DNA from: a virus
Length of the DNA: 33,772 nucleotides
Reading direction: 5' to 3' (one strand)
IMG/VR virus record: IMGVR_UViG_3300001450_000128
Span: 1-33,772 of that record
The position numbers were made by a program, and so were the translations under genes. Shown here piece by piece: positions 8,563-25,649 of this stretch (its first letter is position 1; every line of letters begins with the position of its first letter). Below the pieces are notes generated by a model. The model was given only the letters and a program-made list of their open reading frames with translations, was not told the origin of the DNA and searched no databases.

Positions 8563-10836
8563 ATGAACGATTTATCAAAATTTCTAGTTGATAGTATTCT
8601 CAACGAAGTTGAAGAGGGAATTACAGTAATGTTGCCTGGTGGATTTAAACCTCCACACGAAGGACACTTAATGCTTGCAAAGGGTTATGAAGATATGCCA
8701 CAAGTAAAAGAAGTTGTTATTCTAATAGGACCAAAAGAACGTGATGGTATTACTCTTGAAGATAGCGAAAAAATATGGGAAAAACTACTAGCTGGAACCA
8801 AAAAGATTAGAGTAGAGAGATCAAGATACCCAAGTCCACTACTCACTGCATACAAATATATTGAAGAGAAAGCTCAATCAGGAGAATCGTATGCTTTAGG
8901 GTCAAGCAGCAAAGGTAGTGATTACGATCGTATTCGTGGCTTTGTAGATCAACACCAAAATGATGGAAAATATTATAAAGATGGTGTGAGTGTTGTTGAG
9001 TTGCCACTTGATAAATCAAAACCATTATTCTACAAAAATAGAACTGATGATCAAAACGGTAAGCCAACCTCAGCGTCGCAGCTACGATCTGACTTAGCAG
9101 CTCAGGATTTTGAAAATTTTAAAACAAATTATCCAAGCATAAAATCTGATCAACAGCTTAGAGACATATTCGATCTATTATCAAAAAAAAAGATCAAGGA
9201 GGACCTCTCCCAATCTACTTTGGATGAGATAGAAATTCCTGCTGTCTTACGTAAACAATTTGAACAATTAAAAAGTAAGTTTGGAGCTTTTATTGACAAA
9301 CTAAAGGTTGAAAAGCAAGAAACTAAAGACGCATTTATAAAGCTGTATTCCGCGGTAAAGAAAGGTCAAAAGTTACCAAATCACGAAAGAAAAGAGATTG
9401 GCGATCAAATGAAAGATGTTTTGAAATTAGCTGGATTTACAGCAGCATCTGTGTTACCTGGAGGAGTAATCTACCTACTCTTAGCTCGTCTGCCAATACT
9501 AAAAAAAACACTAACACCCTCAGCATTTCTAGATATAGAGACTCCAGCAGAATTTATGGCTGTCAGTGAGGGTCGCAATCTTTTAAAAGAGGGAGGAGCA
9601 GCTGGACACATGGCTCATCCGTATGAAGATATGGATATGACTTTTGATGATATCGAAGATATGATTGATGCAGCTTTAACCGGAAAAGTGGAGTATGCTC
9701 AAGAGAAGTTAGATGGACAGAATCTTATGGTAACATATAAAGACGGCAAAGTGCTTTCAGCAAGAAACAAAGGACAACTGAAGAATGCAGCTGAAAAAGC
9801 AATGACTAAGAATGATATGGAAAAGTCAATGCAGCACTTACCAGATAATGTTCGTAATGCATTTCTTGATGCAATGCAAGATATGACGGATGCGATATCC
9901 AAACTTAATCCAACCGAAAAAGAAGAGTTTTTTGGAAACGGTACCAAGTTTATAAACATGGAACTCTTACATCCTTCCAGTGAAAATGTAGCTGCTTACG
10001 GAGTAACTCAACTAAGAATGCACAACGTGCAGGAGTATGATGAGAATGGAAACGTCATAGGAAGTGATAGTGAAGCACCTACTAAAATACAACAAGCCTT
10101 AGATCGAGTAGAAGCTTCTAAACAAGATACGTATGAAATAAGAGCCACTGACTTAGTGGATCTTAAACAAACTAAAGATTACGAAAAACAAAAGCAAGAA
10201 CTACTTAAAGATCTTGGTAATGTTAGAGGCAAGTACCAGCTAACTAAGGAAAGTAAGTTAGGATTATACTTTCAAAATTTTTGGTCTGCTTTTATAAAAA
10301 ATAATGCTAAAACCTACAAATACGCAGTGCCTGACGACGTATTGCAGAATATCATTAACAGATGGGCTTTTGGTCAAAAACAACCAAATCTACGAGAGTT
10401 AAAAAAATCAATAGACAATCCAGAATTCTTAGAGTGGTTTACTACTATGGATAAGGGAAGTGGTGTTAGAGATCAAAAAAAGATAGCTGTCGAACCGGTA
10501 GAAGACATCTTTCTAAAATTAGGAGTTTTTGTATTGAAAAGTTTAGAAGGATTAGTAGCAATCAACCCTAACGATTCTATTTCAAAAATGAAAAGAGAGT
10601 TGGCAAGCTCTATCGAACAATTAAAGGCAAAAGCAAACAATGATAAACTTCAAGACGATGATGCACCTTTGAGATTTCTCAAAGCACAACTTAAACGCTT
10701 GGATAAGATTGGAGGATTCGATGCAATAGTACCATCAGAAGGTATAGTGTTTAAACACAAAGGAAAATTATACAAATTAACTGGAGCCTTTGCACCAGTC
10801 AATCAAATTATAGGATACATAAAATTCGGAAGATAA
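8563..10836 (+). CDS. Three-part protein: HxGH nucleotidyltransferase, LETM1-like segment, ligase-like nucleotidyltransferase
   Basis: This 757-residue protein carries two unrelated nucleotidyl-transfer domains. Residues about 20-205 are a cytidylyltransferase/NMN-adenylyltransferase-type fold, with GGFKPPHEGH (HxGH at 32-35) and TSASQLR (169-175) in the place of the family's ISSTxxR motif. Residues about 253-322 resemble a LETM1-type domain, with ETKDAF, an ERKEIGDQMKDVLKLAGF stretch, LPGG and a hydrophobic run ending TPSAF. Residues about 344-757 look like the covalent nucleotidyltransferase superfamily of RNA/DNA ligases and capping enzymes: motif I KLDG (382-385), a possible motif III INMELL, motif IV EGIVFK (726-731) and motif V YKLTG (737-741). 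The real substrates are unknown. NAD metabolism or RNA/DNA repair are the obvious options. LNE (13-15), IKE (211-213) and LKE (341-343) fall before and between the domains and match the gp21 protease motif. Confidence 0.75.
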   Translation: MNDLSKFLVDSILNEVEEGITVMLPGGFKPPHEGHLMLAKGYEDMPQVKEVVILIGPKERDGITLEDSEKIWEKLLAGTKKIRVERSRYPSPLLTAYKYIEEKAQSGESYALGSSSKGSDYDRIRGFVDQHQNDGKYYKDGVSVVELPLDKSKPLFYKNRTDDQNGKPTSASQLRSDLAAQDFENFKTNYPSIKSDQQLRDIFDLLSKKKIKEDLSQSTLDEIEIPAVLRKQFEQLKSKFGAFIDKLKVEKQETKDAFIKLYSAVKKGQKLPNHERKEIGDQMKDVLKLAGFTAASVLPGGVIYLLLARLPILKKTLTPSAFLDIETPAEFMAVSEGRNLLKEGGAAGHMAHPYEDMDMTFDDIEDMIDAALTGKVEYAQEKLDGQNLMVTYKDGKVLSARNKGQLKNAAEKAMTKNDMEKSMQHLPDNVRNAFLDAMQDMTDAISKLNPTEKEEFFGNGTKFINMELLHPSSENVAAYGVTQLRMHNVQEYDENGNVIGSDSEAPTKIQQALDRVEASKQDTYEIRATDLVDLKQTKDYEKQKQELLKDLGNVRGKYQLTKESKLGLYFQNFWSAFIKNNAKTYKYAVPDDVLQNIINRWAFGQKQPNLRELKKSIDNPEFLEWFTTMDKGSGVRDQKKIAVEPVEDIFLKLGVFVLKSLEGLVAINPNDSISKMKRELASSIEQLKAKANNDKLQDDDAPLRFLKAQLKRLDKIGGFDAIVPSEGIVFKHKGKLYKLTGAFAPVNQIIGYIKFGR

Positions 10837-11135
10837 TGGAATTAAAAAAACTTTTAAGCGAAAAGAAAGAAGCAATCGCAACGTCACCAAACACAAATAT
10901 GACGTTACACTACGACCCACAGTTCACTGAAGTAGGAGAGGATGGAAAACCAGAATTCTCATTTGACGTAACAATGTCGTCAGTCGGTGGTAAAGAGTTT
11001 TACAGAACAGTAGCTAATAAGGACGAAGAAAAGAAACTTGCAGAAGCTATGAAATTAGAACTACGTAGAGCTTTGAGAAAGTTTGACAAGAGAGTAGAGG
11101 CGGTGTTAGAAAAATTTAATGTAAAAGCACGATAA
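10836..11135 (+). CDS. Unrecognised 99-residue protein
   Basis: The start codon overlaps the stop of the three-part enzyme (TAATG), and the stop overlaps the next start in the same way, so this is a middle gene of a coupled operon. The protein starts MELKKLLSEKKE, a short Lys/Leu leader with LSE at residues 7-9. It continues with a probable beta portion (MTLHYDPQFTEVGEDGKPEF, SFDVTMSSVGGKEFYRTV) and ends in a charged helix (about 65-99). No enzyme motif or membrane segment is visible. Its place between the nucleotidyltransferase and the zinc-ribbon protein suggests a shared process, but function cannot be named. Confidence 0.7.
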   Translation: MELKKLLSEKKEAIATSPNTNMTLHYDPQFTEVGEDGKPEFSFDVTMSSVGGKEFYRTVANKDEEKKLAEAMKLELRRALRKFDKRVEAVLEKFNVKAR

Positions 11136-11668
11136 TGAAAAAAATTAAGGTTACGAGAAACAAATATGTCGAGCGTCATGAGGGTGATGTTTGGGAGGAA
11201 AGCGGTAAAACGTGGACAATCAAAAACGGCATAAAAAAAACAGTTACAAGAATGGATAAAGCTAGAAAAGACTTTTTAGTCCCGTTAGCATGTCCATGTT
11301 GTGGTAAGAAGATGAACAATCGATTAGATGCCAAATTTTGGAAAACTGATCGAAAGTGTTTTAATTGTGTTGTTGATGAACAACATAAGTTGAGAGCAAA
11401 AGGGTTAAAAAAAGAATTTAATGCGATGAAAAAGTATGAAAATGCTAAATCGTATTTGAGAGATGTTAAAGCCGGCTTGCAAGAGTTTAAAGAAAGCTCA
11501 GCTGAGAACACACATGTTTCAGAAAAAGGAAAAATTGAAAAATGGGCTAACCCAGACAACGCACTAATTAGCGACATGATAGATAAAGAAATCGAAAAGT
11601 TAGAAGGTGTTGTCGGTGAGTTAAAGGATAAAATTAATGAACAAAAAGAACAACCTAAAGGAGAATAA
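11135..11668 (+). CDS. Unrecognised 177-residue zinc-ribbon protein
   Basis: Two cysteine pairs, CPCC (C53 and C56) and CFNC (C75 and C78), 18 residues apart, form a probable zinc ribbon. The pattern, including NRLDAKFWKTDRKCFNC, resembles a small conserved protein of uncultured marine phages whose function I do not know. Residues before the ribbon are basic and beta-like. Residues 85-177 are highly charged and helical, probably a coiled coil. It could bind nucleic acid or a protein partner. It starts in a TAATG overlap, and its last 32 bases overlap the next gene in another frame. A late position between capsid-associated genes argues against a simple early transcription regulator. Confidence 0.72.
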   Translation: MKKIKVTRNKYVERHEGDVWEESGKTWTIKNGIKKTVTRMDKARKDFLVPLACPCCGKKMNNRLDAKFWKTDRKCFNCVVDEQHKLRAKGLKKEFNAMKKYENAKSYLRDVKAGLQEFKESSAENTHVSEKGKIEKWANPDNALISDMIDKEIEKLEGVVGELKDKINEQKEQPKGE

Positions 11669-12110
11669 AGGATTGTGGGCTAACATTAGAGCTAAAAAAG
11701 CTAGAGGAGGAAAATCATCTCCTAAAGGCTCTAAAGCGTATAAGGCTGCAGTCAAAGCTGGCAAGAAGATTAATGCCAAAGAATCCGTTGTTTACCGAAA
11801 TGAAGGTTTGAGACTTGAAATAATAGAACACTCAGAACCAGTATTATTTCAAGAAGCTAAGTATAATGGACGTACTGTTAAGCTTAACAAAATAATGCGT
11901 GGCGATGTTAAGAAATTTAAAGTACATGTAAATTCTGGAAAAAAGAATGCAGACGGTACTATAAAAGCAAAAAAAGTAAATTTTGGTCAAAAAGGAATGA
12001 AGATAAAAAAGAGTAATCCCGCAAGACGTAAATCGTTCAGAGCAAGACATAATTGTGATAATCCAGGACCAAAAACTAAAGCAAGATATTGGTCTTGCAG
12101 AAAATGGTAA
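11637..12110 (+). CDS. Unrecognised 157-residue basic protein with conserved phage C-terminal module
   Basis: The protein is strongly basic. Its N-terminus contains GLWANIRAKKARGGKSSPKG, a short motif common in marine tailed phages. The C-terminal half (about 80-157) holds a second module seen in such phages, with KYNGRTVKLNKIMRG, RRKSFRARHNCDNPGPKTKA and a final YWSCRKW. Two Cys residues in that tail could bind metal. Functions of both modules are unknown to me, and a DNA-binding or capsid-internal role would fit the charge. The ATG at 11637 lies 32 bases inside the previous gene. A TTG at 11673 preceded by AAAGGAG (11657-11663) is an alternative start that would remove 12 residues and begin at the LWANI motif. 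Confidence 0.72.
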   Translation: MNKKNNLKENKGLWANIRAKKARGGKSSPKGSKAYKAAVKAGKKINAKESVVYRNEGLRLEIIEHSEPVLFQEAKYNGRTVKLNKIMRGDVKKFKVHVNSGKKNADGTIKAKKVNFGQKGMKIKKSNPARRKSFRARHNCDNPGPKTKARYWSCRKW

Positions 12111-12118
12111 TATTTATA
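12111..12118 (+). promoter_or_regulatory. Candidate late promoter core TATTTATA
   Basis: The octamer overlaps the very end of the preceding stop region and ends only 3 bases before the ATG at 12122. With T4-like geometry the transcript would begin at or just after that ATG, so it would be leaderless or use a later start. Confidence 0.45.
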
Positions 12119-12121
12119 AGT

Positions 12122-13012
12122 ATGAAGAAGTCGTTAGGCAATACTATCAATAACATGCGTAAAGATATTTTATCTGAAGCGGATGTATTCAACAATCCAA
12201 AAGCAGTTGGGCTAAGTAAGATGGATAAAGATCTAGCAGGAGATGCAGTTGGAGGTGGATTAGAGGATGGCGACAAAGAGGATGATATTATTAATGGTGG
12301 TCCAGATGCAGTCCCAGTAAGCCAGCTCAAGCCTGCACAAAAGGAAGTAATTGTTTCAAAAGCAGTAGCATTTGCTTTAGGATATGCGTTTAATGACTTT
12401 AAAGAAGCAAAGGCAAAAAACGGCGCTCCTGACTTAGCAAATATGGAAGCTATAGTTTCTAATGACGATTTTATTATGGATGGACACCATAGATGGGCAG
12501 CAGCAACTCTTCTTTATCCAGGAGCTAAAGTAGCTATAACAAAGTTAGACTTACCAGGCCAACAACTTATAACAGCACTCAACGCAATGACGAAGGGTAA
12601 GTTGGGTATTGATGTAGGAAACAAAGGAAAAGGTGACGTAGCAAACTTTACTGGAGATAAAGTACAAAATGCAATTAAGTATGCTTTGAAAGATGGTACA
12701 GAACAAGGTTTAAAACAATGGCCTCATCTGTCATCGGAAGAAGTAAAAGTAGCATTAGGAAAGGTTCCAGGAGCTGATGGAGATTCGGAAAAAGGAATGG
12801 CTATTATGGCAGACAATGCCGGAAAACTTGTAAAACAAAAAATGCAAGGTGCTCCAGAAAGAAAGGATATGCCGGTTATTGATGCAGAAAAGGTGAATGC
12901 GGTTGTAAAATATTTAGAAAAAGGAACAGCAGATGTTCTTCCACCCTACAGTAAAGATGTAGAATCACACTTAAAAGAAACATTCCAACATAGAGCTGGA
13001 ATTAAAAAATAA
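12122..13012 (+). CDS. ParB/sulfiredoxin-like fold protein, 296 residues
   Basis: The motif DFIMDGHHRWAAATLLYPGA (DGHHRW at 120-125) is typical of the ParB/sulfiredoxin superfamily, whose members include ParB CTPases, nucleases and small-molecule kinases. Residues 66-145 contain the matching pattern (VPVSQLKPAQKEV, then the DGHHRW loop, then KVAITKLDLPG). The C-terminal 150 residues are helical and not recognised. I chose ATG 12122 rather than the upstream in-frame ATG at 12089 because 12122 follows the TATTTATA octamer, avoids overlap with the preceding gene and gives a leader (MKKSLGNTIN then NMRKDILSEA) like those of neighbouring proteins. LSE at 17-19 fits a prohead-protease site. Whether it binds DNA or a nucleotide cannot be told. 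Confidence 0.72.
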   Translation: MKKSLGNTINNMRKDILSEADVFNNPKAVGLSKMDKDLAGDAVGGGLEDGDKEDDIINGGPDAVPVSQLKPAQKEVIVSKAVAFALGYAFNDFKEAKAKNGAPDLANMEAIVSNDDFIMDGHHRWAAATLLYPGAKVAITKLDLPGQQLITALNAMTKGKLGIDVGNKGKGDVANFTGDKVQNAIKYALKDGTEQGLKQWPHLSSEEVKVALGKVPGADGDSEKGMAIMADNAGKLVKQKMQGAPERKDMPVIDAEKVNAVVKYLEKGTADVLPPYSKDVESHLKETFQHRAGIKK

Positions 13013-13015
13013 AAT

Positions 13016-13423
13016 ATGAAGCTTAGAGATTTAATGCCCTTACAACAAATTAATGAAAACGACGGAACAGAGTGGTTAGATTATGTTCGTAAGTTTGGCG
13101 AACTTAGTGACGGATACGACGTACTATTTGATTATGTTGGTGTAAAGGATGATGTAAAAATATACACAGCCGATCTTACCAATTTTGGAGATATGAGCTT
13201 GGTAGTATCTAAAGCATATATTGTTGCTAAATGTTCTAAGAAGCAGTGCATGTTTGGATTAGTGTATGTTCTTAATGGATTAGAAAAGCTAGATGCAACA
13301 ATCTGTAAGATTAAGCGAAAAGAAAAAGATGGACACGCCACTCTTGAAGGCATAATGTTCGACTCAGAAGACAAAAAGAACTTCTCAGGAGATGATGTTA
13401 AATTTAAAAACGTAATTAAATGA
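13016..13423 (+). CDS. Unrecognised 135-residue protein
   Basis: This small protein starts 3 bases after the ParB-like gene and overlaps the next start by ATGA, so it belongs to the same transcript. The N-terminus MKLRDLMPLQ then QINENDG has the same look as neighbours: a short amphipathic leader with INE at 12-14. The rest appears beta-rich with an internal CSKKQCMFGLVYVL segment. Two Cys residues 5 apart are not an obvious metal site. There is no signal peptide, membrane helix or enzyme motif. Function unknown. Confidence 0.65.
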   Translation: MKLRDLMPLQQINENDGTEWLDYVRKFGELSDGYDVLFDYVGVKDDVKIYTADLTNFGDMSLVVSKAYIVAKCSKKQCMFGLVYVLNGLEKLDATICKIKRKEKDGHATLEGIMFDSEDKKNFSGDDVKFKNVIK

Positions 13424-13824
13424 AGCGTACAAAAAAACAACTACAACAAGCCTTAATTAGAGAGCTCGTAAAACGAGAATTGCACAAAGCTCTTATGGAA
13501 GGAGCAGGCGGTGCACCACCCGAAGAGGAAGAGGAAGAAGCAGCAGCTGACGTTTCTGATGAGCCGGATGCTAAACCTGAAGAACCGACTGAGGAACCGA
13601 CTGAGGAACCGACCGAAGAGCCGGAAGAAGAGGAAGAGCCAGGTCTTGATGAGGAACTACAAAATCTTACTGATCTTTATATTAAGAAACTCAAAGACGC
13701 CACTGCTGAAGTGGATCAAACTGACATAATTGCAATAGTGGTTGACATGTTAGAGAGTTTTGGTTACGGAAACCAGGACAAGCTAACAATCCTACAAAGA
13801 ATAAAAGAAGACAGCTTACGATGA
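13420..13824 (+). CDS. Unrecognised 134-residue acidic protein with EEPT repeats
   Basis: The first 27 residues are basic and helical (MKRTKKQLQQALIRELVKRE) and end in ALMEGAGG. The middle (about 30-75) is almost entirely Glu, Pro and Ala with three EPTE units, encoded by a 12-base tandem repeat. The last 55 residues form a helical domain. A basic leader, then LME before GAGG (25-27), then an acidic low-complexity stretch recalls T4 prohead-core and internal proteins, where gp21 cuts after L-X-E and acidic peptides stay in the head. This is analogy, not homology. It overlaps both neighbours by ATGA. Confidence 0.65.
   Translation: MKRTKKQLQQALIRELVKRELHKALMEGAGGAPPEEEEEEAAADVSDEPDAKPEEPTEEPTEEPTEEPEEEEEPGLDEELQNLTDLYIKKLKDATAEVDQTDIIAIVVDMLESFGYGNQDKLTILQRIKEDSLR
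13582..13617 (+). repeat. Three tandem 12-base repeats encoding EPTE units
   Basis: Two identical GAACCGACTGAG copies are followed by one copy with two changes (GAACCGACCGAA). They sit in frame inside the acidic protein, so copy-number changes would keep the reading frame. Confidence 0.85.
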
Positions 13825-14849
13825 AAAAACTGGACAAACTAATAGAAAGCACAGTCAAAGCAATGACACCTCTAAAAGAATATACAGACGATGACTTCTC
13901 CGGAGCAAAGGTCATAGCAGATGCTATGCAGAAGAAGCCTGACAGCGAAGATATGGAGTTTATTACAAAATATTTTCCAAACGCTGTAAAGAGCATGTCA
14001 AAAGCTGAAGCGAATTTGAAAGCTTCTGATGCAAGTCCTATCAAAAAAAGAATGGGACAATATGCTCCAATGTTTGTACATGTTCAATATCACACATTTA
14101 CGGAAACTTCTGGACAAACATTCGCAGTACATCAAACTCAATATTACAACTCTAACTTCAAGGATAAGCCAGGAGGAGAAAAATTCAATCCAAGAGTGAC
14201 TGAGCTTAACTTTTATAGTGGCGAAAATCAAAAGGATAAGATGGGAGTGATTCTTGCAGCAACGGATGAGTATATAAAAGATTTAAAAGACTTAGACAGA
14301 TTAGGAATGTTGGGAAAGAGAATTAGTGAGTCTCTCAACGAGGGTAAAGGTTTAACCGAAGCATCTAAACTCATTAAAAATTTACGAGAAAAAGTATATA
14401 GAAATCTTAACGATCAAGAATTAGAAGAATTTAAAAAAGAAATAATGAATCATCTAGGAGGCACTATGAACGAAGCAATAGATCCAAAATACAAAACATT
14501 TTACGATCAAGTATATAAACATGTTAATGAGCTTGATAGAATTTTAGGAGCAAACAAACCACCAAAAGTACCAGAAGAAATCTGGAGTAAAGTATATGGA
14601 TTAGTAGGACAGATGGCGGATAAAATTGACTTTTTAGACGACAGACTTTTGAAAAATCTTAAAGAAAACGACATGAACACAAAAACAGAATCAATCGTAA
14701 ACCGATTAAAAGAAGATACCGAATACCAAAAGTTTTTCAAATCGGCAATGGACAAGTTTGGCGTAAAATCACCAAAAGGTTTGAGTGATAAGAAGAAGAA
14801 AGAATTCTTCAACTACGTTGACAAAAACTACAAAGCCAAAGGCGAGTAG
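13821..14849 (+). CDS. Unrecognised 342-residue late protein with conserved C-terminal phage module
   Basis: The start overlaps the previous gene by ATGA. The N-terminal leader MKKLDKLIES then TVKAMTPLKEYTDD ends in LKE (18-20). Residues about 55-165 form a mixed domain (YAPMFVHVQYHTFTETSGQT) with no recognised motif, followed by LNE-GKG and LTE-ASK. Two helical regions follow (about 185-275). The C-terminus, about residues 297-342, is a compact module (EYQKFFKSAMDKFGVKSP, then KKEFFNYVDKNYKAKGE) that I recognise as recurring at the ends of different marine-phage proteins, function unknown. An RLKEDTEYQ junction puts an LKE directly before that module. This is the last gene of the late block before the membrane-protein pair. 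Confidence 0.68.
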   Translation: MKKLDKLIESTVKAMTPLKEYTDDDFSGAKVIADAMQKKPDSEDMEFITKYFPNAVKSMSKAEANLKASDASPIKKRMGQYAPMFVHVQYHTFTETSGQTFAVHQTQYYNSNFKDKPGGEKFNPRVTELNFYSGENQKDKMGVILAATDEYIKDLKDLDRLGMLGKRISESLNEGKGLTEASKLIKNLREKVYRNLNDQELEEFKKEIMNHLGGTMNEAIDPKYKTFYDQVYKHVNELDRILGANKPPKVPEEIWSKVYGLVGQMADKIDFLDDRLLKNLKENDMNTKTESIVNRLKEDTEYQKFFKSAMDKFGVKSPKGLSDKKKKEFFNYVDKNYKAKGE

Positions 14850-15563: not shown

Positions 15564-17126
15564 ATGAGTGTAGATTTAAAAAAGCTAATAAGGACTGAGT
15601 ACGTAAAATGTGCTAAGGATCCAGTATACTTTATGAAAAAATACTGTCTAATCCAGCATCCATCAAAAGGAAAGATACCATTTAAGTTGTATCCCTACCA
15701 AGAAGAGCTTACCAATGACATGCAAGACAATGACAGGGTTATCATACTCAAGTCACGTCAGCTAGGAATATCAACATTATCTGCAGGATACTCTTTGTGG
15801 ACAATGTTATTTCATAGCGATAAAAACATTCTTGTTGTTGCAATTGACCAAAACACATCTAAAAACCTTGTAACAAAGGTTAGTGTAATGTTTGAAAACT
15901 TACCAAGTTGGCTGCGATTAAAGACAACAGAAAAAAATAAACTGTCACTACGATTAACAAACGGATCACAAATCAAAGCTGTTGCCAGCTCAGGAACATC
16001 AGGACGTTCAGAAGCATTATCATTAGTAATAATTGATGAGGCAGCATTCGTTGATAATGCAGAAGAGTTGTGGGCATCCCTACAACAAACCTTAGCAACT
16101 GGAGGTAGAGGCGTTATATTAAGTACACCAAACGGTACCGGTAACTTCTTTCATAAGATATGGATGAAATCAGAAGAAGGAGAGAATCAATTTTTTACCA
16201 AAAGACTTCCATGGCAAGTACATCCAGAAAGAGATCAGGAGTGGAGAGATAGGCAAGATGATGAGTTAGGAGCTAGGCTAGCTGCACAAGAGTGTGATTG
16301 CGATTTCAGTACATCAGGTAATACTGTTGTACATCCAGACATGTTAAACTTCTACAGACAAACCTACATGCAAGATCCAATTGAAAAACGAGGATTTGAT
16401 AGTAATTTACATGTGTGGGAGATCCCAAATTATACAAAGGATTATGTGGTAGTAGCTGATGTTGCTCGTGGAGATGGAACAGATTACTCAGCATTCCACG
16501 TGTTTGATTTAGAAGAGGCAACACAAGTAGCTGAATATAAAGGGCAAGTAACAACAAAGGATTATGGCAACATGCTGGTGTCTATTGCTACAGAGTATAA
16601 TGATGCACTGCTTGTTATTGAAAATGCAAATATAGGATGGGCAACTATACAACAAGTAATTGATCGTTCATATAAAAACCTATATTACACACCAAAAGAT
16701 ATAGGATTAGATTCAGATAGATATCTAGCTCGAGCAACAGATGTACAACGTACCAAAGATCAGGTAGCTGGCTTTACAATGTCTTCAAAAGTACGACCAT
16801 TAATTATTTCCAAGATGGAGTTGTATATGAGGGAAAAAAGTTGTATAATAAGGAGTAGAAGGCTTCTTGATGAACTTGGCGTTTTCATATGGAGAAACGC
16901 AAGACCTGAAGCACAATTAGGATACAATGATGATTTGGTAATGAGTTGGTGTATGGCATTGTGGGTAAGAGACACAGCATTAAAGCTACGTCAAGCAGGA
17001 ATCGAGCTAACAAAGAGAGCTTTAGATCATGCAAAATCAACCGCAGTGTATAGAACATCTCACAAAACTGATTCATGGAAAATGGATGTAAAAGGCAAAG
17101 ACGAAGACTTAAATTGGTTATTGTAG
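15564..17126 (+). CDS. Terminase large subunit (T4 gp17-like packaging ATPase/nuclease)
   Basis: This 520-residue motor protein pumps DNA into the prohead and cuts it at the end. The ATPase domain has a deviant Walker A, KSRQLGIST (63-71), in which the usual second Lys is Ile and a Lys stands at the front, as in lambda-type terminases. Walker B is LVIIDEA (154-160), and the coupling motif is LSTPNGTGN (186-194). The RNase H-fold nuclease domain follows, with D299 in VVVADVARGDG, E353 in LLVIENANIG and the acidic pair D456-D457 in YNDDLVMS, matching the T4 gp17 triad D401, E458, D542. T4 gp17 is 610 residues, and this one is shorter mainly at the N-terminus. The ATG directly follows the previous stop. 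No small terminase subunit was identified. Confidence 0.95.
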   Translation: MSVDLKKLIRTEYVKCAKDPVYFMKKYCLIQHPSKGKIPFKLYPYQEELTNDMQDNDRVIILKSRQLGISTLSAGYSLWTMLFHSDKNILVVAIDQNTSKNLVTKVSVMFENLPSWLRLKTTEKNKLSLRLTNGSQIKAVASSGTSGRSEALSLVIIDEAAFVDNAEELWASLQQTLATGGRGVILSTPNGTGNFFHKIWMKSEEGENQFFTKRLPWQVHPERDQEWRDRQDDELGARLAAQECDCDFSTSGNTVVHPDMLNFYRQTYMQDPIEKRGFDSNLHVWEIPNYTKDYVVVADVARGDGTDYSAFHVFDLEEATQVAEYKGQVTTKDYGNMLVSIATEYNDALLVIENANIGWATIQQVIDRSYKNLYYTPKDIGLDSDRYLARATDVQRTKDQVAGFTMSSKVRPLIISKMELYMREKSCIIRSRRLLDELGVFIWRNARPEAQLGYNDDLVMSWCMALWVRDTALKLRQAGIELTKRALDHAKSTAVYRTSHKTDSWKMDVKGKDEDLNWLL

Positions 17127-19868: not shown

Positions 19869-20624
19869 ATGGGATTGAGCTTAGAAGAAAAGGAAGAGTT
19901 AAAGAAGTACATCAAAGAGCAGGCTGCTCAGATGAAAGAAAACACAACAGCAAATGTTGGCTCCTACGATACACCAAACGCGTTTACTGGCGATGAGGAT
20001 GATGACGGAACACAATCGGTTGATTTAACTGATCCAGAATATGCATACTCAATCAAAGGACCAAAAAAACGGAATCCTAAATATTCGGTAAAATTAAACG
20101 AAGTATCATATAAAGCTTTTAAACGAGACGAATCACGATCGACAGTACAAAAGGTAAACGCAAACATCTTAGAAGTAAACAAGAATATTAGAGAGTTAGC
20201 AAGAATGCTTCAACACAGCATTAAGTTAAAAAATGAATCTAAGATGGATAACAATATCCATTGGAAACGTACAAACGAAGCTTTAGCTAAAATGCATCAA
20301 CGCATATCGGTATTATCTGAAAAAGCTAACCAACTATATAACTTAACAGAAGCGACTGCACAGCAAGCTCAAGGAGATCTACTATCACTACTTAATAGTG
20401 TTGGTGATCCGCAGTTTGACGCTATACGATCTACCGACATAGACCACAACCCTATAGGTGCTGATCATTTCGAATTTGACGTTATGCTTAACGGAGAACC
20501 AGTCGCTATTGATTGGGATAAAGGAAACTTAACGTACCAAGATTACAGTGAAGAAATACCATTAGGAAACATCGATAATCCTGAAGAAGTCATTGCTAAC
20601 ATACAAAAACACATGATATCATGA
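19869..20624 (+). CDS. Unrecognised 251-residue protein in head operon
   Basis: The first 25 residues are a charged helix (MGLSLEEKEELKKYIKEQAA) containing IKE. Then comes an acidic, probably flexible stretch (about 30-60) rich in Asp, Gly and Thr, a helical coiled-coil region (about 85-160), and a C-terminal acidic beta-like domain (about 185-251, FEFDVMLNGEPVAIDWDKGN). No family is recognised. The gene begins one base after its neighbour and ends in an ATGA overlap with the protease gene, so it should be made together with head-assembly factors. Confidence 0.68.
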   Translation: MGLSLEEKEELKKYIKEQAAQMKENTTANVGSYDTPNAFTGDEDDDGTQSVDLTDPEYAYSIKGPKKRNPKYSVKLNEVSYKAFKRDESRSTVQKVNANILEVNKNIRELARMLQHSIKLKNESKMDNNIHWKRTNEALAKMHQRISVLSEKANQLYNLTEATAQQAQGDLLSLLNSVGDPQFDAIRSTDIDHNPIGADHFEFDVMLNGEPVAIDWDKGNLTYQDYSEEIPLGNIDNPEEVIANIQKHMIS

Positions 20625-21235
20625 AAAGAGTATTAGTAGATTATATAGGATCAATCCAAGTAACACCTACACAGATCAACGAATCCATGAACAAAAACAA
20701 TGGAAAGCTAATCGTGTCAGGAATTATGCAGAGAGCCAGTACTGGCGATGATGAAAACTTTAACCAAAATGGAAGGAGCTATCCTTTACCTATTTTGAAA
20801 AAAGAATGTGAAACTTACAAAAACACTTTTGTAAAGGAGCGTAGAGCGTTAGGCGAATTAGATCATCCAGATTCTCAAGTGGTAAACCTATCAAACGTGT
20901 CTCACAATGTACTTGATTTGTGGTGGCAAGGGACTGACTTAATGGGAAAGATTGAGATATTATCTACACCCTCAGGAAACATTGCAAAGGAGTTAATGAA
21001 ATCTGGAATCAGATTAGGCATCAGCTCAAGAGGAATGGGATCTGTTAAGGAGTTAGGAGAGGGAAAGGTAGAAGTACAAGACGACTTTGAAATCGTATGT
21101 TGGGATTTGGTCAGTAATCCATCTACACAAGGTGCTTTTATGAATTCATCTTTAAACGAAAACACCAATTCAAATAACAACAACAAACACACTAGAATCC
21201 ATTCACTAATAAGTGAGATAATATCAGTAATGTAA
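20621..21235 (+). CDS. Prohead maturation protease (T4 gp21-like)
   Basis: This 204-residue serine protease digests the prohead core and trims capsid proteins before DNA packaging. Family features are KLIVSGIMQRAST, then RSYPLPILKKE, RRALGELDHPD with the catalytic His82, LGISSRGMGSV with the catalytic Ser (135 or 136), and DDFEIVCWDLVSNPST, which supplies the third acidic residue region (D154/D155 or D162). Two sequences fitting its own specificity flank the domain: INE at 19-21 and LNE at 178-180. Cutting at both would leave a mature enzyme of about residues 22-180, consistent with the known self-processing of T4 gp21. The start overlaps the previous gene (ATGA), and the stop overlaps the next (TAATG). 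Confidence 0.92.
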   Translation: MKRVLVDYIGSIQVTPTQINESMNKNNGKLIVSGIMQRASTGDDENFNQNGRSYPLPILKKECETYKNTFVKERRALGELDHPDSQVVNLSNVSHNVLDLWWQGTDLMGKIEILSTPSGNIAKELMKSGIRLGISSRGMGSVKELGEGKVEVQDDFEIVCWDLVSNPSTQGAFMNSSLNENTNSNNNNKHTRIHSLISEIISVM

Positions 21236-21618
21236 TGAAGACAAATATACTAAAACAACTTAGCGAAGCAATGGATAATGCCGGCGCCTCAAAAATGAAG
21301 CTTAATGAAAAAGCTCAAGTGCTTGAAGAAATTAAAGAGTACGGAAACTTTGAAGAAGCAATCTATCGTAGCAAAGGATTAAAAGAAGCTGCTAACAGAA
21401 TCTCTGAAATTGTAGAAAAAGCAGAACGCGTTGCTTTACAAGAAACCGAAGAGTGGTTTGATGAAGTGACCGTGAAGAGAAACATGAAAGAGCTTAACAA
21501 CAACAATAAAGAATTCACTAAAACAGTAGCTGAAGTATCTAAACTACAGCAACGCTTAGAGTCTTTGTACGAAGAAATGGGTAACAATCTATCTCGCTAC
21601 TATGAAGTTGGTCACTAA
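21235..21618 (+). CDS. Unrecognised 127-residue helical protein in prohead operon
   Basis: The small, charged, wholly helical protein begins MKTNILKQLSEAMDNAGASK, a leader with LSE at 9-11, and has a coiled coil over about residues 75-120. It sits between the prohead protease and scaffold genes, where T4-like phages carry small prohead-core proteins. The start uses a TAATG overlap, and the last 17 bases overlap the next gene in another frame. A core or scaffold accessory is a fair guess. Confidence 0.68.
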   Translation: MKTNILKQLSEAMDNAGASKMKLNEKAQVLEEIKEYGNFEEAIYRSKGLKEAANRISEIVEKAERVALQETEEWFDEVTVKRNMKELNNNNKEFTKTVAEVSKLQQRLESLYEEMGNNLSRYYEVGH

Positions 21619-21973
21619 CAAAAACACACTTGTTGATATATTAGGTGAGTTAATGCTTGAGTATAGGTTGCTTGAGAATCCATTCGCTGCTGCTGCTGAA
21701 AAAGAGGGTGGTGGAGATGCTGGTGGTGACAAAGGTGAAGAAGGCGGTGACAAAGGTGAAGAAGAAAAAAAAGACGACAAAAAGGGTAGTGGTGAAAAAG
21801 CATTAAAAGTGTTCTTCGATCCATCTGCAGTCAAAAAATATAACACCAATACTGATTGGAGAGCTGGAGAGGGTGAAGTAAAAGCAATAACAAAAAAAGG
21901 TTTAGAAGTAGATGTTGATGGATACACAATTCAAGTAAATTTTAGTGACCTTACTGAAAACAAAAAGAAATGA
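21602..21973 (+). CDS. Unrecognised 123-residue protein with Gly/Asp/Lys-rich repeat
   Basis: The N-terminus has a helical leader (MKLVTNKNTLVDILGELMLE) followed by RLLENPF, giving an LLE candidate cut. Residues about 38-66 are a flexible Gly, Asp, Glu and Lys repeat (two GGDKGEE units). The C-terminal half (about 70-123) is a compact beta-like domain (KVFFDPSAVKKYNTNTDWRA, then a TIQVNFSDL strand) that resembles small SH3/KOW-like barrels in pattern only. It overlaps the previous gene by 17 bases and the next by ATGA. Likely a prohead-associated or packaged protein. Function unknown. Confidence 0.65.
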   Translation: MKLVTNKNTLVDILGELMLEYRLLENPFAAAAEKEGGGDAGGDKGEEGGDKGEEEKKDDKKGSGEKALKVFFDPSAVKKYNTNTDWRAGEGEVKAITKKGLEVDVDGYTIQVNFSDLTENKKK

Positions 21974-22803
21974 ATAAGCCAACATTAAGTTTATCTGAAA
22001 TAACATACAGAATTTTGCGAGAGCGTAAATTCAATAAGATGATAGCTGAAATTACAGTAGCTATGAAATCGTCATCTAAAATGCTTAAGGAGGCTGGAAT
22101 ACCATCAGGTATCGATCAAGGCATCTTAAAAGTGTCTAAAGAGGTAGAAAAGGATGGGGAGGATATGGATGACGAAGAGGTGCAAGCAGCAATGATGATG
22201 GCTGCCCTTGAAAAGGGTGGTGATATCTCAAAAGTTAAAGCATCCGATGTTGAAAAAGAATTACCTACAGTTGATGAAAGACGTCAGTCAGTAAATGAAA
22301 GCGGTGGAGGACTTTTGGATTCCATCCTTACAGTCGTATCACTTGTTCTAGGAAACATGGCATTTATCGAAGCTATCTGTGCGGCTATTGAAAAGATAAC
22401 GGGGAAAAAGATGGATCCAAAGATAGTCAAAACAAAACTAGGAAAATTCGATGCCAGCATTAAAGGCCTTGCCGGCTGGGTAATGAAAAAAATTGGACAA
22501 GCTATTGAGTGGATCATAGGGCAAATGGGTGGTGGACCTAATGCTCAAAAGATAGGAGCTTATAGCGTAAAGTTTATCGGTGTAGTAGCTTTATTTGCAC
22601 TTGGAGTTTCGCACTTTCCTCTTGCAGGAGCAAGTGTGTTTGGTATTATAATATCAATAACTTCAATGATTGGTAAAGGGTTTGAGCTTGTAGTGCTTGG
22701 AAAGGAATTATTTAAGTACATAAAAAAAGCAATAGCAGACAATAAAGAGCTCAAGGCAAAACTGCAAGCTGGTGGAGATGCACCAGCCCCAGCAATGGCG
22801 TAA
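21970..22803 (+). CDS. Unrecognised 277-residue membrane protein in prohead operon
   Basis: The first 110 residues are soluble, charged and helical, with several (L/I)-X-E motifs (LSE, LRE, IAE, LKE). Hydrophobic segments follow at about 114-140 (LLDSILTVVSLVLGNMAFIE), 199-213 (SVKFIGVVALFALGV) and 218-247 (LAGASVFGIIISITSMIGKG), with an amphipathic helix between them (about 165-186). The chain ends in a Lys-rich helix and Ala/Pro tail. A membrane protein in the middle of a head-assembly operon is unexpected. It could anchor prohead initiation to the membrane, as T4 proheads start on the inner membrane, or be packaged and inserted at infection. I recognise no family. Confidence 0.65.
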   Translation: MNKPTLSLSEITYRILRERKFNKMIAEITVAMKSSSKMLKEAGIPSGIDQGILKVSKEVEKDGEDMDDEEVQAAMMMAALEKGGDISKVKASDVEKELPTVDERRQSVNESGGGLLDSILTVVSLVLGNMAFIEAICAAIEKITGKKMDPKIVKTKLGKFDASIKGLAGWVMKKIGQAIEWIIGQMGGGPNAQKIGAYSVKFIGVVALFALGVSHFPLAGASVFGIIISITSMIGKGFELVVLGKELFKYIKKAIADNKELKAKLQAGGDAPAPAMA

Positions 22804-22939: not shown

Positions 22940-23989
22940 ATGAACAAATTATTAAAAGATGCAATCGCAGACGCAAAAGCTGTTCGCGAAACTGCATTAG
23001 CAAACGCAAAACTTGCTTTAGAAGAAGCCTTTGCTCCTAAGCTGCAATCTATGCTGTCTCATAAAATTAAAGAAGAGATGGAAGAGGAAGAGCCAATGGA
23101 GGAGATGGAAGATGAAGAAGAAATGACAATGGAGATGTCTCACGACGAAGACGAAATGCAATCCGAAGGCGAAGGTGGAGAACCTGAAGTAGAGGATGAA
23201 GTAGAAGTTGAAGTTGAGGCAGAACCAGAAGTTTCTGATGAAGGATCTGAAGAAGAAGCATCTGCTGAAGCCGAAGAAGCTGAAATGACTGATGACGAGT
23301 TAGAAGAGATTCTAAGAGAGTTAGAAGGAGAAGAAGATGAAATGGCTGAAGGAGATTATTCTGAAGAAGATATGGAAGAAGAAGCTCACGCTGAAACCGA
23401 TGAAATGGAAGAAGGCGATCATTCTGACAAAGAAGAAATGGATGAAAAAATGTCGTCTAAAGAAAAAATGAAGAAAGGTCTTTACAAAGAAGAAGATCAT
23501 TCTGAAAAAGAGGACATGGAAGAAGGTGACGATGAAGATATCGACCTAGAAGAAATCATTAAAGCTCTTAGAGAAGAGGAAGAAGATGATAAAGAATCCA
23601 TGGATGAAGAAAAGGATGAAGATGAGTTGGAAGAAGCTTACAATGTTATCAAATTCTTACGTTCTAAGTTAAACGAAGTGAATCTACTTAACGCTAAATT
23701 ACTTTATGTAAACAAGCTATTCAAGAAAGGTGAATTGACTGAGACTAAGAAAATAAAAATCATCGAAACTTTTGACAGAGTTAAAACAGTTAGAGAAGCT
23801 AAATTAGTGTATGCTACATTAGCCGAATCAATGACTGCAAGACCTGTCAGAAAAGCTGCTCCTAAAAGAAAAGCAAAAAACCTAACTGAAGGTATCGCAT
23901 CATCTCGTTCAAAAGGAACGAAAAAAGTGATTGCTGACAGTAACGGAGTTTATAACCGTTTTACAGAATTAATTAACTACAACAAGTAA
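22940..23989 (+). CDS. Prohead core scaffolding protein (T4 gp22-like)
   Basis: The 349-residue protein should form the internal core around which the capsid protein assembles and then be degraded by the prohead protease. Residues about 45-235 are extremely acidic (runs of Glu and Asp with Met and Ser), typical of scaffolds. The diagnostic part is the C-terminal helical domain, about 238-300, with NVIKFLRSKLNEVNLLNAKL, LLYVNKLFKKGEL and KKIKIIETFDRVKTVREAKL, closely resembling gp22 of marine T4-like phages. A short N-terminal Ala/Lys helix contains LEE. The gene lies just before the major capsid gene, as in T4. It follows the structured leader described separately. Confidence 0.88.
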   Translation: MNKLLKDAIADAKAVRETALANAKLALEEAFAPKLQSMLSHKIKEEMEEEEPMEEMEDEEEMTMEMSHDEDEMQSEGEGGEPEVEDEVEVEVEAEPEVSDEGSEEEASAEAEEAEMTDDELEEILRELEGEEDEMAEGDYSEEDMEEEAHAETDEMEEGDHSDKEEMDEKMSSKEKMKKGLYKEEDHSEKEDMEEGDDEDIDLEEIIKALREEEEDDKESMDEEKDEDELEEAYNVIKFLRSKLNEVNLLNAKLLYVNKLFKKGELTETKKIKIIETFDRVKTVREAKLVYATLAESMTARPVRKAAPKRKAKNLTEGIASSRSKGTKKVIADSNGVYNRFTELINYNK

Positions 23990-24017: not shown

Positions 24018-25649
24018 ATGAATTTATTTGAAGGAATGGGAGAAACAAACAGAAGCCACGAAAATAAGGCTTTAATCTCCAAATGGTCCAGAACGGGCCT
24101 ATTAGAAGGACTTGGTGACAAACAAGAAGAGGCAACAGTGTCTGTTCTTTTAGAGAACCAAGCAAAACAGCTTTTGAAAGAGGGGTCTGCTACAACAGCT
24201 GGTACTGCAGGTGCCGGATATGAGCAGTGGACAGGAGTAGCTCTTCCTTTGATCAGGAGAGTTTATGCGGAGATCGCAGCAAAGGAATTTGTCAGCGTTC
24301 AACCAATGAACTTACCATCAGGACTAGTATTCTACCTAGATTTCAAATACGCTAACGATAAAAATCCATTTGGATTCGCTCCAACGGAGAAAAACCAAAC
24401 TGGTACACTACAAGGTGTCACTGACACTACTGCTGATCCATCTGATGGACTTTACGGAGCAGGTCGATTTGGATATTCAATTAACAACCAAATTGCAACA
24501 ACTGGACATACAATCCACACTGGATCTGTAGGTGTTGACACTGTACTTTACGATGGTGATTTTACAGCATCAATTGCTAATTACCATACAGTAATTGTTC
24601 CTACTGCATCTCTTTCCTCTTCTAACGGAACTGGATTAGACAAAGAAGCAGTTAGATCATTCCAACTACTATCTGGTTCAGTTGAGTTAGACGTCATTGA
24701 AAAGTTTACTCAAATCGTTGGTGGAAACGTACAATTCGTTGTAGCATCTGAATCATTAGCACCAGCTACACATGTGACACTTAGTCCTTTCCGTGCAGCA
24801 ATTTCATTCTCAGTACAACCTACGAATGATGATAGAGGTGACTTCGAGGCTAAACCAGTATCTGCTACAAACAGAGACTTGGATACAGACTTGAATATCC
24901 CAAGCATTGAATTGCAAATGAGAAGTATTCCGGTAACTGCTAAGACTCGTAAGTTGAAAGCAAGCTGGACTCCTGAGTTCGCTCAAGACCTTAACGCATA
25001 CCATTCAGTAGATGCTGAAGGTGAGTTGACTTCTATGTTATCTGAGTATGTCTCTATGGAGATTGACTTAGAGATCTTAGACATGTTGATTTCATCAGCT
25101 GCTTCTACAGACTTCTGGTCTGCTAAAGTAGGTCAAGAGTTTAACTCTGCTACTAATCTATTCGAGGCATCACAATTTAGTGGTCAAGCATATATCCAAG
25201 GTACTTGGTTTGCTACTTTAGGTACTAAAGTACAGAAAGTATCTAACGAGATCCATGCTAAGACTCTGAGAGGTGGAGCTAACTTCTTAGTTTGTTCTCC
25301 AAAAATCTCAACTATCCTTGAGTCAATTCCTGGATATGCTGCGACTGACGGAACAGGCAAGATGAAATATGCAATGGGTGTAAGACAAGTAGGTGCTATT
25401 AATAACGCTTATGATGTTTACAAAAACCCTTACATGCAAGAGAATACCATCTTGATGGGATTCAGAGGAAGCCAGTTCTTAGAGACTGGAGCAGTATACG
25501 CACCATACGTGCCATTAATGCTTACTCCTCTTGTTTACGATCCAAAGAATTTTACTCCAAGAAGAGGTGTAATGACAAGATATGCAAAACTTGTTACTAG
25601 ACCAGAATTCTACGGTAAGATTAACGTTGCAGATCTAAACGTGCTGTAA
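24018..25649 (+). CDS. Major capsid protein (T4 gp23-like)
   Basis: The 543-residue protein is the main shell subunit (HK97 fold), close to T4 gp23 at 521 residues. Family stretches include the N-terminal NKALISKWSRTGLLEGL, the conserved YEQWTGVALPLIRRVYAEIA, VQPMNLPSGLVFYLDFKYAN, RKLKASWTPEFAQDLNAYHS, and the C-terminal MQENTILMGFRGS and MTRYAKLVTRPEFYG. T4 gp23 loses its first 65 residues to gp21. Here LKE followed by GSATTAG (cut after residue 55) is a good equivalent, with LLE at 28-30 an alternative. Codon use is smoother than in neighbours, as in a highly expressed gene. A strong terminator follows 23 bases after the stop. Confidence 0.96.
   Translation: MNLFEGMGETNRSHENKALISKWSRTGLLEGLGDKQEEATVSVLLENQAKQLLKEGSATTAGTAGAGYEQWTGVALPLIRRVYAEIAAKEFVSVQPMNLPSGLVFYLDFKYANDKNPFGFAPTEKNQTGTLQGVTDTTADPSDGLYGAGRFGYSINNQIATTGHTIHTGSVGVDTVLYDGDFTASIANYHTVIVPTASLSSSNGTGLDKEAVRSFQLLSGSVELDVIEKFTQIVGGNVQFVVASESLAPATHVTLSPFRAAISFSVQPTNDDRGDFEAKPVSATNRDLDTDLNIPSIELQMRSIPVTAKTRKLKASWTPEFAQDLNAYHSVDAEGELTSMLSEYVSMEIDLEILDMLISSAASTDFWSAKVGQEFNSATNLFEASQFSGQAYIQGTWFATLGTKVQKVSNEIHAKTLRGGANFLVCSPKISTILESIPGYAATDGTGKMKYAMGVRQVGAINNAYDVYKNPYMQENTILMGFRGSQFLETGAVYAPYVPLMLTPLVYDPKNFTPRRGVMTRYAKLVTRPEFYGKINVADLNVL

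Follow-up and report, generated by a model that had tools for sequence, protein, structure and literature searches.

Candidate prohead-protease sites at leader ends and module borders of late-gene proteins from a T4-like phage

Results

A block of late genes with leaders that may direct proteins into the phage head

We analyzed a stretch of viral DNA of 33,772 nucleotides (IMG/VR virus record IMGVR_UViG_3300001450_000128, positions 1 to 33,772; this whole stretch is called the window), with a focus on a block of eight genes at 8563..14849. Six of the eight likely encode head cargo that is made as precursors, an arrangement in which the capsid-targeting leaders and gp21 protease sites known from phage T4 would be extended to polyproteins whose modules are swapped between relatives. 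In the proposed mechanism, a short N-terminal helix would attach each precursor to the prohead scaffold core, and a gp21-type protease would remove the leader by cutting after (L/I)-x-E (positions P3 to P1; V also occurs at P3 in the capsid proteins of relatives). In the three-part enzyme encoded at 8563, cuts made within the capsid at E213 and E343 would yield three pieces (nucleotidyltransferase, helical module, and RNA-ligase-like enzyme), and the protein encoded at 13821 is probably cut also at E20, E174, and E298. The mature enzymes would then be packaged alongside the DNA and delivered by ejection into the host cell, where RNA repair and NAD support at the onset of infection are plausible roles. 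We infer packaging, the cleavage itself, ejection, and host function from sequence.

With TerL at 15564, a portal gene at 17151, the prohead protease at 20621, and the major capsid protein (MCP) at 24018, the window corresponds to the late region of a T4-like phage. The features of the window given below as coordinate ranges are on the plus strand. The gp21-type prohead protease (20621..21235) matches phrog_207, head maturation protease, with an E value of 3.2e-51, and the gp23-type MCP (24018..25649) matches phrog_138 (E 2.3e-73). The MCP itself has a predicted cut at LLKE55/GSATTAG (P3 to P1 at 24174-24182; a slash marks the predicted cut here and below), and at the equivalent place the capsid proteins of relatives read VKE/G, IKE/G, IDE/A, ISE/A, or VSE/A. 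The highest-ranked isolate capsid matches, Flavobacterium phage immuto and Microcystis phage Mel-JY01, are about 52% identical. As genome context for the window we used G005, a 165,609-base IMG/VR contig that carries the three-part enzyme and the protease at 100% identity. Pfam returned little for the window proteins, and PHROGs mostly unknowns.

The motif [LI]xE lies within residues 1-30 of seven of the eight block proteins, a count that was reached in 4 of 5000 residue shuffles (2.70 ± 1.25); the exception is the zinc-ribbon protein at 11135. The preliminary description, which proposed both such a shuffled-sequence control and a comparison of motif positions across homologues, had placed the motifs at LNE15 (8563), LSE9 (10836), LSE19 (12122), INE14 (13016), LME27 before GAGG (13420), LKE20 (13821), and, inside the three-part enzyme, IKE 211-213 and LKE 341-343; all of these are present. 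Since [LI]xE is also found in 331 of 1397 interior 30-mers of G005 (and in the first 30 residues of 69 of its 195 genes), a single match is weak evidence. The three-part enzyme alone has seven matches overall, so it is the homologue test that bears the weight, and across homologues the motif positions are kept while x and the flanking residues vary.

The small protein at 10836..11135 begins MELKKLLSE/KKEAIA. LxE directly precedes the conserved KK[EQ]A[IV] in 14/14 homologues, and although the family uses 12 distinct leaders of 8-19 residues, all 12 end in LxE at one and the same body residue. The protein at 13016..13423 begins MKLRDLMPLQQINE/ND and retains an [LI]xE leader end in all nine homologues (INE, LQE, LKE, or LRE). 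For the acidic protein at 13420..13824 (...HKALME/GAGGAP), which has a 27-residue leader, the P1 Glu is kept in 6/6 homologues and strict [LI]xE in four of them (VNE in L002, MME in L172), with L174 aligned in its C-terminal half only. The ParB-like protein at 12122..13012, which contains DGHHRW, has a leader ending ...KDILSE/AD; five of its six homologues end the leader in [LI]xE, L178 differs, and an in-frame ATG upstream would lengthen the leader.

Predicted cut sites separate the folds of a three-part enzyme

The gene at 8563..10836 encodes a protein of 757 residues. Its predicted capsid-targeting leader, MNDLSKFLVDSILNE (residues 1-15; 8563..8607), ends in the gp21 site LNE. Module 1 (residues 16-213; 8608..9201) is a nucleotidyltransferase (NMNAT/PPAT-like) that ends in the predicted site IKE 211-213, at 9193-9201; module 2 (residues 214-343; 9202..9591) is helical and ends in the predicted site LKE, at 9583-9591; and module 3 (residues 344-757; 9592..10836) is an RNA-ligase-like domain (GGxxGHM...EKLDG). 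We aligned 13 full-length homologues (L001, L002, L004, L169-L176, L178, and L179; L177 was omitted as near-identical to L176). The leader site LNE15 keeps [LI]xE in 13/13, with N, K, A, Q, T, S, or R as x, and so does the ligase-border site LKE343, with S, K, N, T, L, or M as x. At IKE213 the P1 Glu is kept in all nine aligned homologues and the strict motif in five. Matches in the interior of the modules decay (IWE73 in 1/13, LRE612 in 2/13). We regard this comparison as good evidence for the predicted processing sites.

An AlphaFold2 model of the protein (mean pLDDT 80.7, pTM 0.57, 40 rows) falls below pLDDT 50 over at least three residues only in residues 1-8, 11-15, 210-229, and 312-348, and E15, E213, and E343 all lie in these regions. 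IKE 211-213 and LKE 341-343, which the preliminary description placed at domain junctions, are thus both in segments modelled as disordered linkers. Module 1 aligns with NMN adenylyltransferase 2r5w in the VIA structure search (Z 13.7, rmsd 3.5, 168 aligned residues, model residues 18-218), and most of the listed PPAT matches cover model residues ~18-212, that is, between E15 and E213. Foldseek likewise finds PPAT/NadD enzymes as matches to the N-terminal part, and the sequence contains PHEGH, in keeping with an HxGH-type adenylyltransferase fold; Pfam gives CTP_transf_like only at E 0.17. For module 3, Foldseek finds RNA ligase 8ucg (E 1.6e-3, probability 0.98) and T4 Rnl1 9do4 (E 1.9e-3), with no match at E <= 0.001 and a low TM score over the whole chain. 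As matches to the nucleotidyltransferase fill the VIA listing obtained with the 757-residue model, the ligase assignment rests on Foldseek and on the K-x-D-G motif, in which K382, D384, and G385 are invariant in alignment A4. The Pfam family RNA_ligase appears only in homologues L170 (E 0.13) and L178 (E 0.11), below the cut-off. Sequence searches of the PDB, which were less informative than the fold searches, gave weak matches for the nucleotidyltransferase and nothing useful for the ligase. For the middle module, a weak LETM1_RBD match occurs only in homologue L171 (E 0.057, below the cut-off) and is not listed for the window. Neither Pfam nor PHROGs returned a peptidase family for the three-part protein of the window.

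Modules are exchanged between the predicted sites

The position between nucleotidyltransferase and ligase is variable. It is empty in L173, L174, and L175; it holds the helical middle module in the window, L001, L002, L004, L171, L172, L176, and L177, and longer versions of it in L169 and L170; and it is taken by a HAD phosphatase in L178 and by an apparent HAD remnant in L179. Whatever sits upstream, [LI]xE/GG marks the junction with the ligase throughout the full-length homologue set. The parts also occur as separate genes with leaders of their own: the HAD phosphatase as MIKLAEILNE/KQLGKRLVIFDFDDTL in G005 and, with a class-A leader (see below), in L104, and the ligase in LR756500 (MKFLKSYEEFLNENLILE/GGSYGHL) and in L201. 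The separate HAD phosphatase of G005 matches the PNKP phosphatase profile weakly (E 0.0072). Nucleotidyltransferase, ligase, and HAD phosphatase together look like a kit for RNA-end repair and NAD supply, which could be in place ahead of any phage gene expression.

Another fused architecture with a motif at its border is seen in immuto gp88 (L008:3132-5855), a protein of 907 residues in which TLAE/ALDDGSEVVALYAGGFKPPH comes after another nucleotidyltransferase-like domain at the N-terminus and a HEMIHH string lies at the C-terminus.

The gene at 13821..14849 encodes a second multi-part precursor, for which three full-length homologues are available. Its leader ends in LIE9, kept in 3/3, and its predicted borders are LKE20/YTDDDFSG (13872-13880), LNE174/GKGL (14334-14342), and LKE298/DTEYQKFF (14706-14714). 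The first border, which was originally read as the end of the leader, is kept in 3/3 in the full-protein alignment: the site before YTDxNFSG reads LKE, LKE, and IKE, despite insertions of >100 residues after the leader in L002 and L004. The second has LNE and INE counterparts in both homologues with that module, which L004 lacks, and RLKE298/ is kept in 3/3. In L172, L174, L176, and L177 a gene of its own encodes the last domain behind a leader, with RLKE/ or RLQE/ preceding DTAYQEFF.

In L002:15247-16650 and L004:15234-16775, the LIE9 leader and a (V/L)xE are followed by a KAVSKxQQxFxG module ahead of the shared YTDxNFSG part, so that more modules are joined there by the same type of border.

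The motif directly precedes a predicted catalytic cysteine

N-terminal-nucleophile (Ntn) hydrolases act with a nucleophile at the N-terminus, and a leader on such an enzyme bears directly on the proposed processing. The gene L020:18124-18996, on G005 and outside the window, encodes a leadered, acyltransferase-like Ntn-hydrolase (Foldseek match to 2x1c, E 1.8e-8). Family matches fall below the cut-off (NCBIfam C45_proenzyme, E 9.2e-9; Pfam AAT, E 4.6e-4), and a sequence search of the PDB gave nothing useful. Among the 50 VIA matches listed, 40 start at model residue 14, which is the predicted nucleophile Cys directly after LNE. In these superpositions Cys14 pairs with residue 103 of isopenicillin N acyltransferase, residue 126 of human NAAA, residue 143 of human acid ceramidase, residue 2 of bile salt hydrolases, and residue 1 of penicillin V acylases, and the titles of listed structures name C126A, Cys143Ala, C2A, and Cys1Ser mutants.

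The string [LI]xE/Cys is present in 22/22 homologues, namely 21 loci and Chryseobacterium phage MA9V-1. Their leaders span 7-14 residues and often bear little resemblance to one another, with 11 distinct strings in the 22 (the 21 loci include seven copies of one leader and five of another). Ntn relatives that cleave themselves are not known to need [LI]xE before the nucleophile, and the constancy of the motif therefore points to an outside protease with the specificity of gp21. The protein is thus a candidate for a zymogen that the prohead protease activates, for which we infer cutting by gp21; such a cut would uncover the catalytic residue. This makes the enzyme a sharp test of our reading, in that without the cut there would be no active site.

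One type of leader is found on unrelated proteins

At 151,172-157,001 of G005 (reversed orientation), nine same-strand genes with different bodies follow one another, seven with 10-residue leaders of the form M[IM]KLxxILxE and two with close variants. The bodies in this run (L013:8609-14438) include HAD, GNAT-like (weak), and ART-like (weak) proteins and one with a HELEH string. The T4 internal proteins IPII and IPIII begin MKTYQEFIAE/, the same 10-residue layout as in these class-A leaders. In IPIII, residues 4 and 7 are reported to serve targeting and residues 8 and 10 processing, and the two functions are described as separable in T4 (PMC9026906).

A codon-degenerate pattern for the class-A leader, run over viral contigs, found at least 120 stretches, compared with two for a scrambled-order control pattern of equal degeneracy. 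From these, 80 loci with 89 matches were kept. The matches lie at gene starts in 87 of the 89 (84 without three proteins that are cut by contig ends, which the bacterial and archaeal count leaves out as well) and in the interior of genes in two. Among 77 matches in genomes of bacteria and archaea, 17 lie at gene starts, 17 are interior, and 43 are in frames of <50 residues. The 89 viral leaders comprise 82 distinct DNA sequences and 40 peptides, indicating that the peptide is what is kept. Clustering of the bodies (E 1e-3, single linkage, with incomplete and short proteins dropped) divided 84 proteins with MIK[LF]K[DN]xLxE leaders into 56 clusters, or 98 proteins into 60 when variants from four phage genomes were added. 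Pfam families matched by the leadered members include Zeta toxin, NUDIX, RNase_T, RimK, Hydrolase_2, and DUF2608/HAD.

Counted over whole genomes, Glu10 together with L/I8 occurs in 12 of 195 genes of G005 (shuffle mean 2.2, maximum 10 of 2000 shuffles) and in 10 of 133 genes of G002 (mean 1.6, maximum 7). A broader leader rule selects 28 of 195 genes in G005 (expected 10.7 ± 3.0), 29 in G002 (7.8 ± 2.6), and 34 in W02 (11.5 ± 3.2). By eye, we counted about 19 leadered genes in G005.

In LR756508 (L009, 10213-32784), the protease is surrounded by over ten small genes that begin with a third leader type, MKxxxxxLRxxIRxE....

Alternative explanations

Several observations weigh against the processing of leadered, multi-module cargo by gp21. 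Of 83 ligase loci in a wider set, 57 have [LI]xE at the border and 26 have LLM, and LR756508 is also without the motif there; as an LLM-border phage (L216/L255) has IDE/A in its capsid protein, we read LLM as a lost or unused cut at that place and not as a new specificity. P3 drifts at the first inner border of the three-part enzyme, and LDE222, in the same linker as E213, is kept in four of six aligned homologues, so the exact position of the first inner cut is uncertain; the interior match IEE102 is kept in two of three. The zinc-ribbon protein at 11135 lacks an [LI]xE leader, as do its 16 listed homologues. Glu10 with L/I8 stays below the shuffle maximum in W01 (7/229; mean 2.3, maximum 8) and W02 (5/212; 2.5, maximum 9), as does the broader rule in W01 (19 genes; 11.3 ± 3.1, maximum 21). 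Among 20 class-A contigs selected for length, phrog_207 was found in 12, phrog_138 in 11, and either in 13; eight are without phrog_207 (one of these has a portal), and six, including one of 207 kb, have no protease, MCP, or portal match. As many class-A contigs are fragments, co-occurrence with the protease is weak evidence either way. Virion proteomics for this phage or its homologues was not found in the literature searched, and the available part of the paper on phage MA9V-1 gives SDS-PAGE only. The proposal of the preliminary description, in which gp21 processes leadered precursors where leaders end and domains meet, is partly supported: it passes the sequence tests suggested there, with limits set by the zinc-ribbon protein, P3 at E213, and the 26 LLM borders.

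In a leader-only account, the leaders are real and removed by gp21 and the three-part enzyme stays one chain, with the inner motifs belonging to a linker or to the edge of the ligase (xLLxxGGAxGHM), an account that we consider unlikely, though it is the most serious competitor. In its favor, LLM stands in place of LxE in 26 of the 83 ligase homologues, with both the hydrophobic pair and the GG retained, and P3 varies at the first inner border. It does not sit well with the E343 site, which in the close set is kept in 13/13 with a variable x, nor with the model, where residues 312-348 are disordered and the string around E343 thus falls outside the modelled ligase core. The edge LxE/GG or IxE/GG moreover persists where the ligase is a stand-alone leadered gene, the 13821 protein keeps its borders despite module insertion, and on a tree of the 83 loci P1 of the ligase border changes four times as against 23 times for P2 (P3 changes seven times).

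We give clearly less credence to the view that the N-termini are some other docking helix, for example one that binds a membrane or a polymerase, and that (L/I)-x-E follows from a Glu-rich amphipathic composition. The leaders do resemble short amphipathic helices, packaging is argued from sequence, and some class-A contigs have no prohead protease match. Set against this are the motif directly before the predicted nucleophile in 22/22 Ntn homologues with leaders of 7-14 residues, the single body residue at which the variable leaders of the 10836 family end, and the architecture, which equals that of T4 IPII and IPIII. Chance matches in Glu-rich proteins are a very improbable source of the pattern as a whole: [LI]xE is common in interior 30-mers of G005, but the block count is rarely reached by shuffling, and the leader and ligase-border sites are kept in 13/13 as against 1/13 and 2/13 for IWE73 and LRE612. 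The caveat that L/I-X-E is common by chance accordingly does not extend to E15, E343, and the leaders of the 10836 and 13016 proteins; it does apply to interior matches and perhaps to LKE9 of the 11637 protein.

Relation to known systems

Capsid-targeting leaders with gp21 cutting are already known from T4, where gp21 cuts after L/I-X-E (PMC9026906), as are multidomain injected proteins, from polyvalent proteins (PMC5512222). T4 IPI, IPII, IPIII, and Alt are described as having a short leader that ends in L/I-x-E, with one leader on different bodies (PMC9026906, PMC3012670), and, as in T4, a gp21-type protease and a gp23-type capsid protein are encoded by the same genome. The phage studied here differs from T4, which has few such proteins, in the roughly 19 leadered genes counted in one genome, in other leader sequences, and in multi-module precursors with predicted cuts between the modules. 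Polyvalent proteins, which are thought to be packaged and injected, also combine several enzymes in one late-gene polypeptide, with an overlapping repertoire of ParB-like, ART, GNAT, and metallopeptidase domains (PMC5512222). The three-part protein has nucleotidyltransferase and RNA-ligase folds in one chain, and its gene lies upstream of TerL and portal, as would be expected of a polyvalent protein. An embedded peptidase has been proposed to release the domains of polyvalent proteins, whereas here the motifs are those of the prohead protease, which would cut in trans; the available text of that paper contains no polyvalent protein with an RNA ligase (PMC5512222).

In phiKZ and SPN3US the prohead protease strips propeptides from head proteins, some proteins are ejected, and two paralogues have identical N-termini, but phiKZ cleavage follows S/A-X-E, SPN3US propeptides are often longer than 100 residues, and the portions of these sources available describe no module-by-module release (PMC5694885, PMC9026906). 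Phage P1 DarB resembles the proteins studied here in that an N-terminal signal of 10-30 residues directs a large defence protein into the head; a difference is that, in the text available, the Dar proteins have no reported common leader sequence (PMC9024508). The portions of the literature available as open-access text contained no leadered RNA-ligase or nucleotidyltransferase cargo, no description of module-swapping polyproteins with prohead-protease sites at their borders, and none of one leader on dozens of families outside the T-evens or of a cut that uncovers a catalytic N-terminus.

Beyond the block itself, we lean toward a wider proposal, held less firmly, that aquatic T4-like phages share a widespread import code. 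Interchangeable leaders and cut sites would bring tens of head-carried enzymes into each virion, and enzyme modules would be rearranged between the sites, giving polyproteins whose parts are released in trans by the head protease. In the Ntn-hydrolase the cut would also expose the catalytic residue, so that the prohead protease would have a second role as an activator of cargo. Injected proteins are known for few phages and are hard to learn. Recognition of leaders and cut sites from sequence, if it proves possible, would make injected sets predictable for many uncultured phages and testable by simple mass spectrometry. The leadered set has matches to the Nudix, Zeta-toxin-type kinase, exonuclease, ATP-grasp, HAD, and cell-wall hydrolase families, along with nucleotidyltransferase, RNA ligase, and Ntn-hydrolase proteins, and a polyprotein cut by the head protease, if true, would be a solution to delivery distinct from self-cleaving polyvalent proteins.

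Other genes of the block and of the head region

Two genes of the block were dropped as cargo. The zinc-ribbon gene (11135..11668) had been counted in the ejected set by the preliminary description and was removed because it is leaderless in the window and its listed homologues. The basic protein at 11637..12110, with LKE9 near its start and a doubtful leader, was dropped provisionally, as [LI]xE lies shortly upstream of the GLWxNIRAKRARG body in only five of 13 homologues (L002, L127, L170, L176, and L177). This body has a class-A leader in L127 (L127:9140-9757) and little or none in most relatives, a case of leader gain or loss on one body.

Between the protease and the scaffold, two genes (21602..22803) have leader-like N-termini by sequence reading, LLE25/NPF and LKE/AGIP, and both strings recur in G002. 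The gp22-type scaffold protein (22940..23989) was named by its synteny before the MCP and its acidic composition; it had no match in the protein-family search of the window, and related ORFs occupy the equivalent position in immuto, Mel-JY01, and others. Its C-terminus is NRFTELINYNK, and scaffold relatives (L252, L254, L255, L007, L008, and L009) have a C-terminal peptide of the R[FMW]xKLAxI type after the last [LI]xE. In G002 and immuto, cargo leaders of a second class start with a similar string, which suggests a common core-binding motif for scaffold C-termini and this leader class. Prohead-protease profile matches in G028, G031, G038, and G043 span in-frame stop codons, which may reflect the ends of matches or another genetic code.

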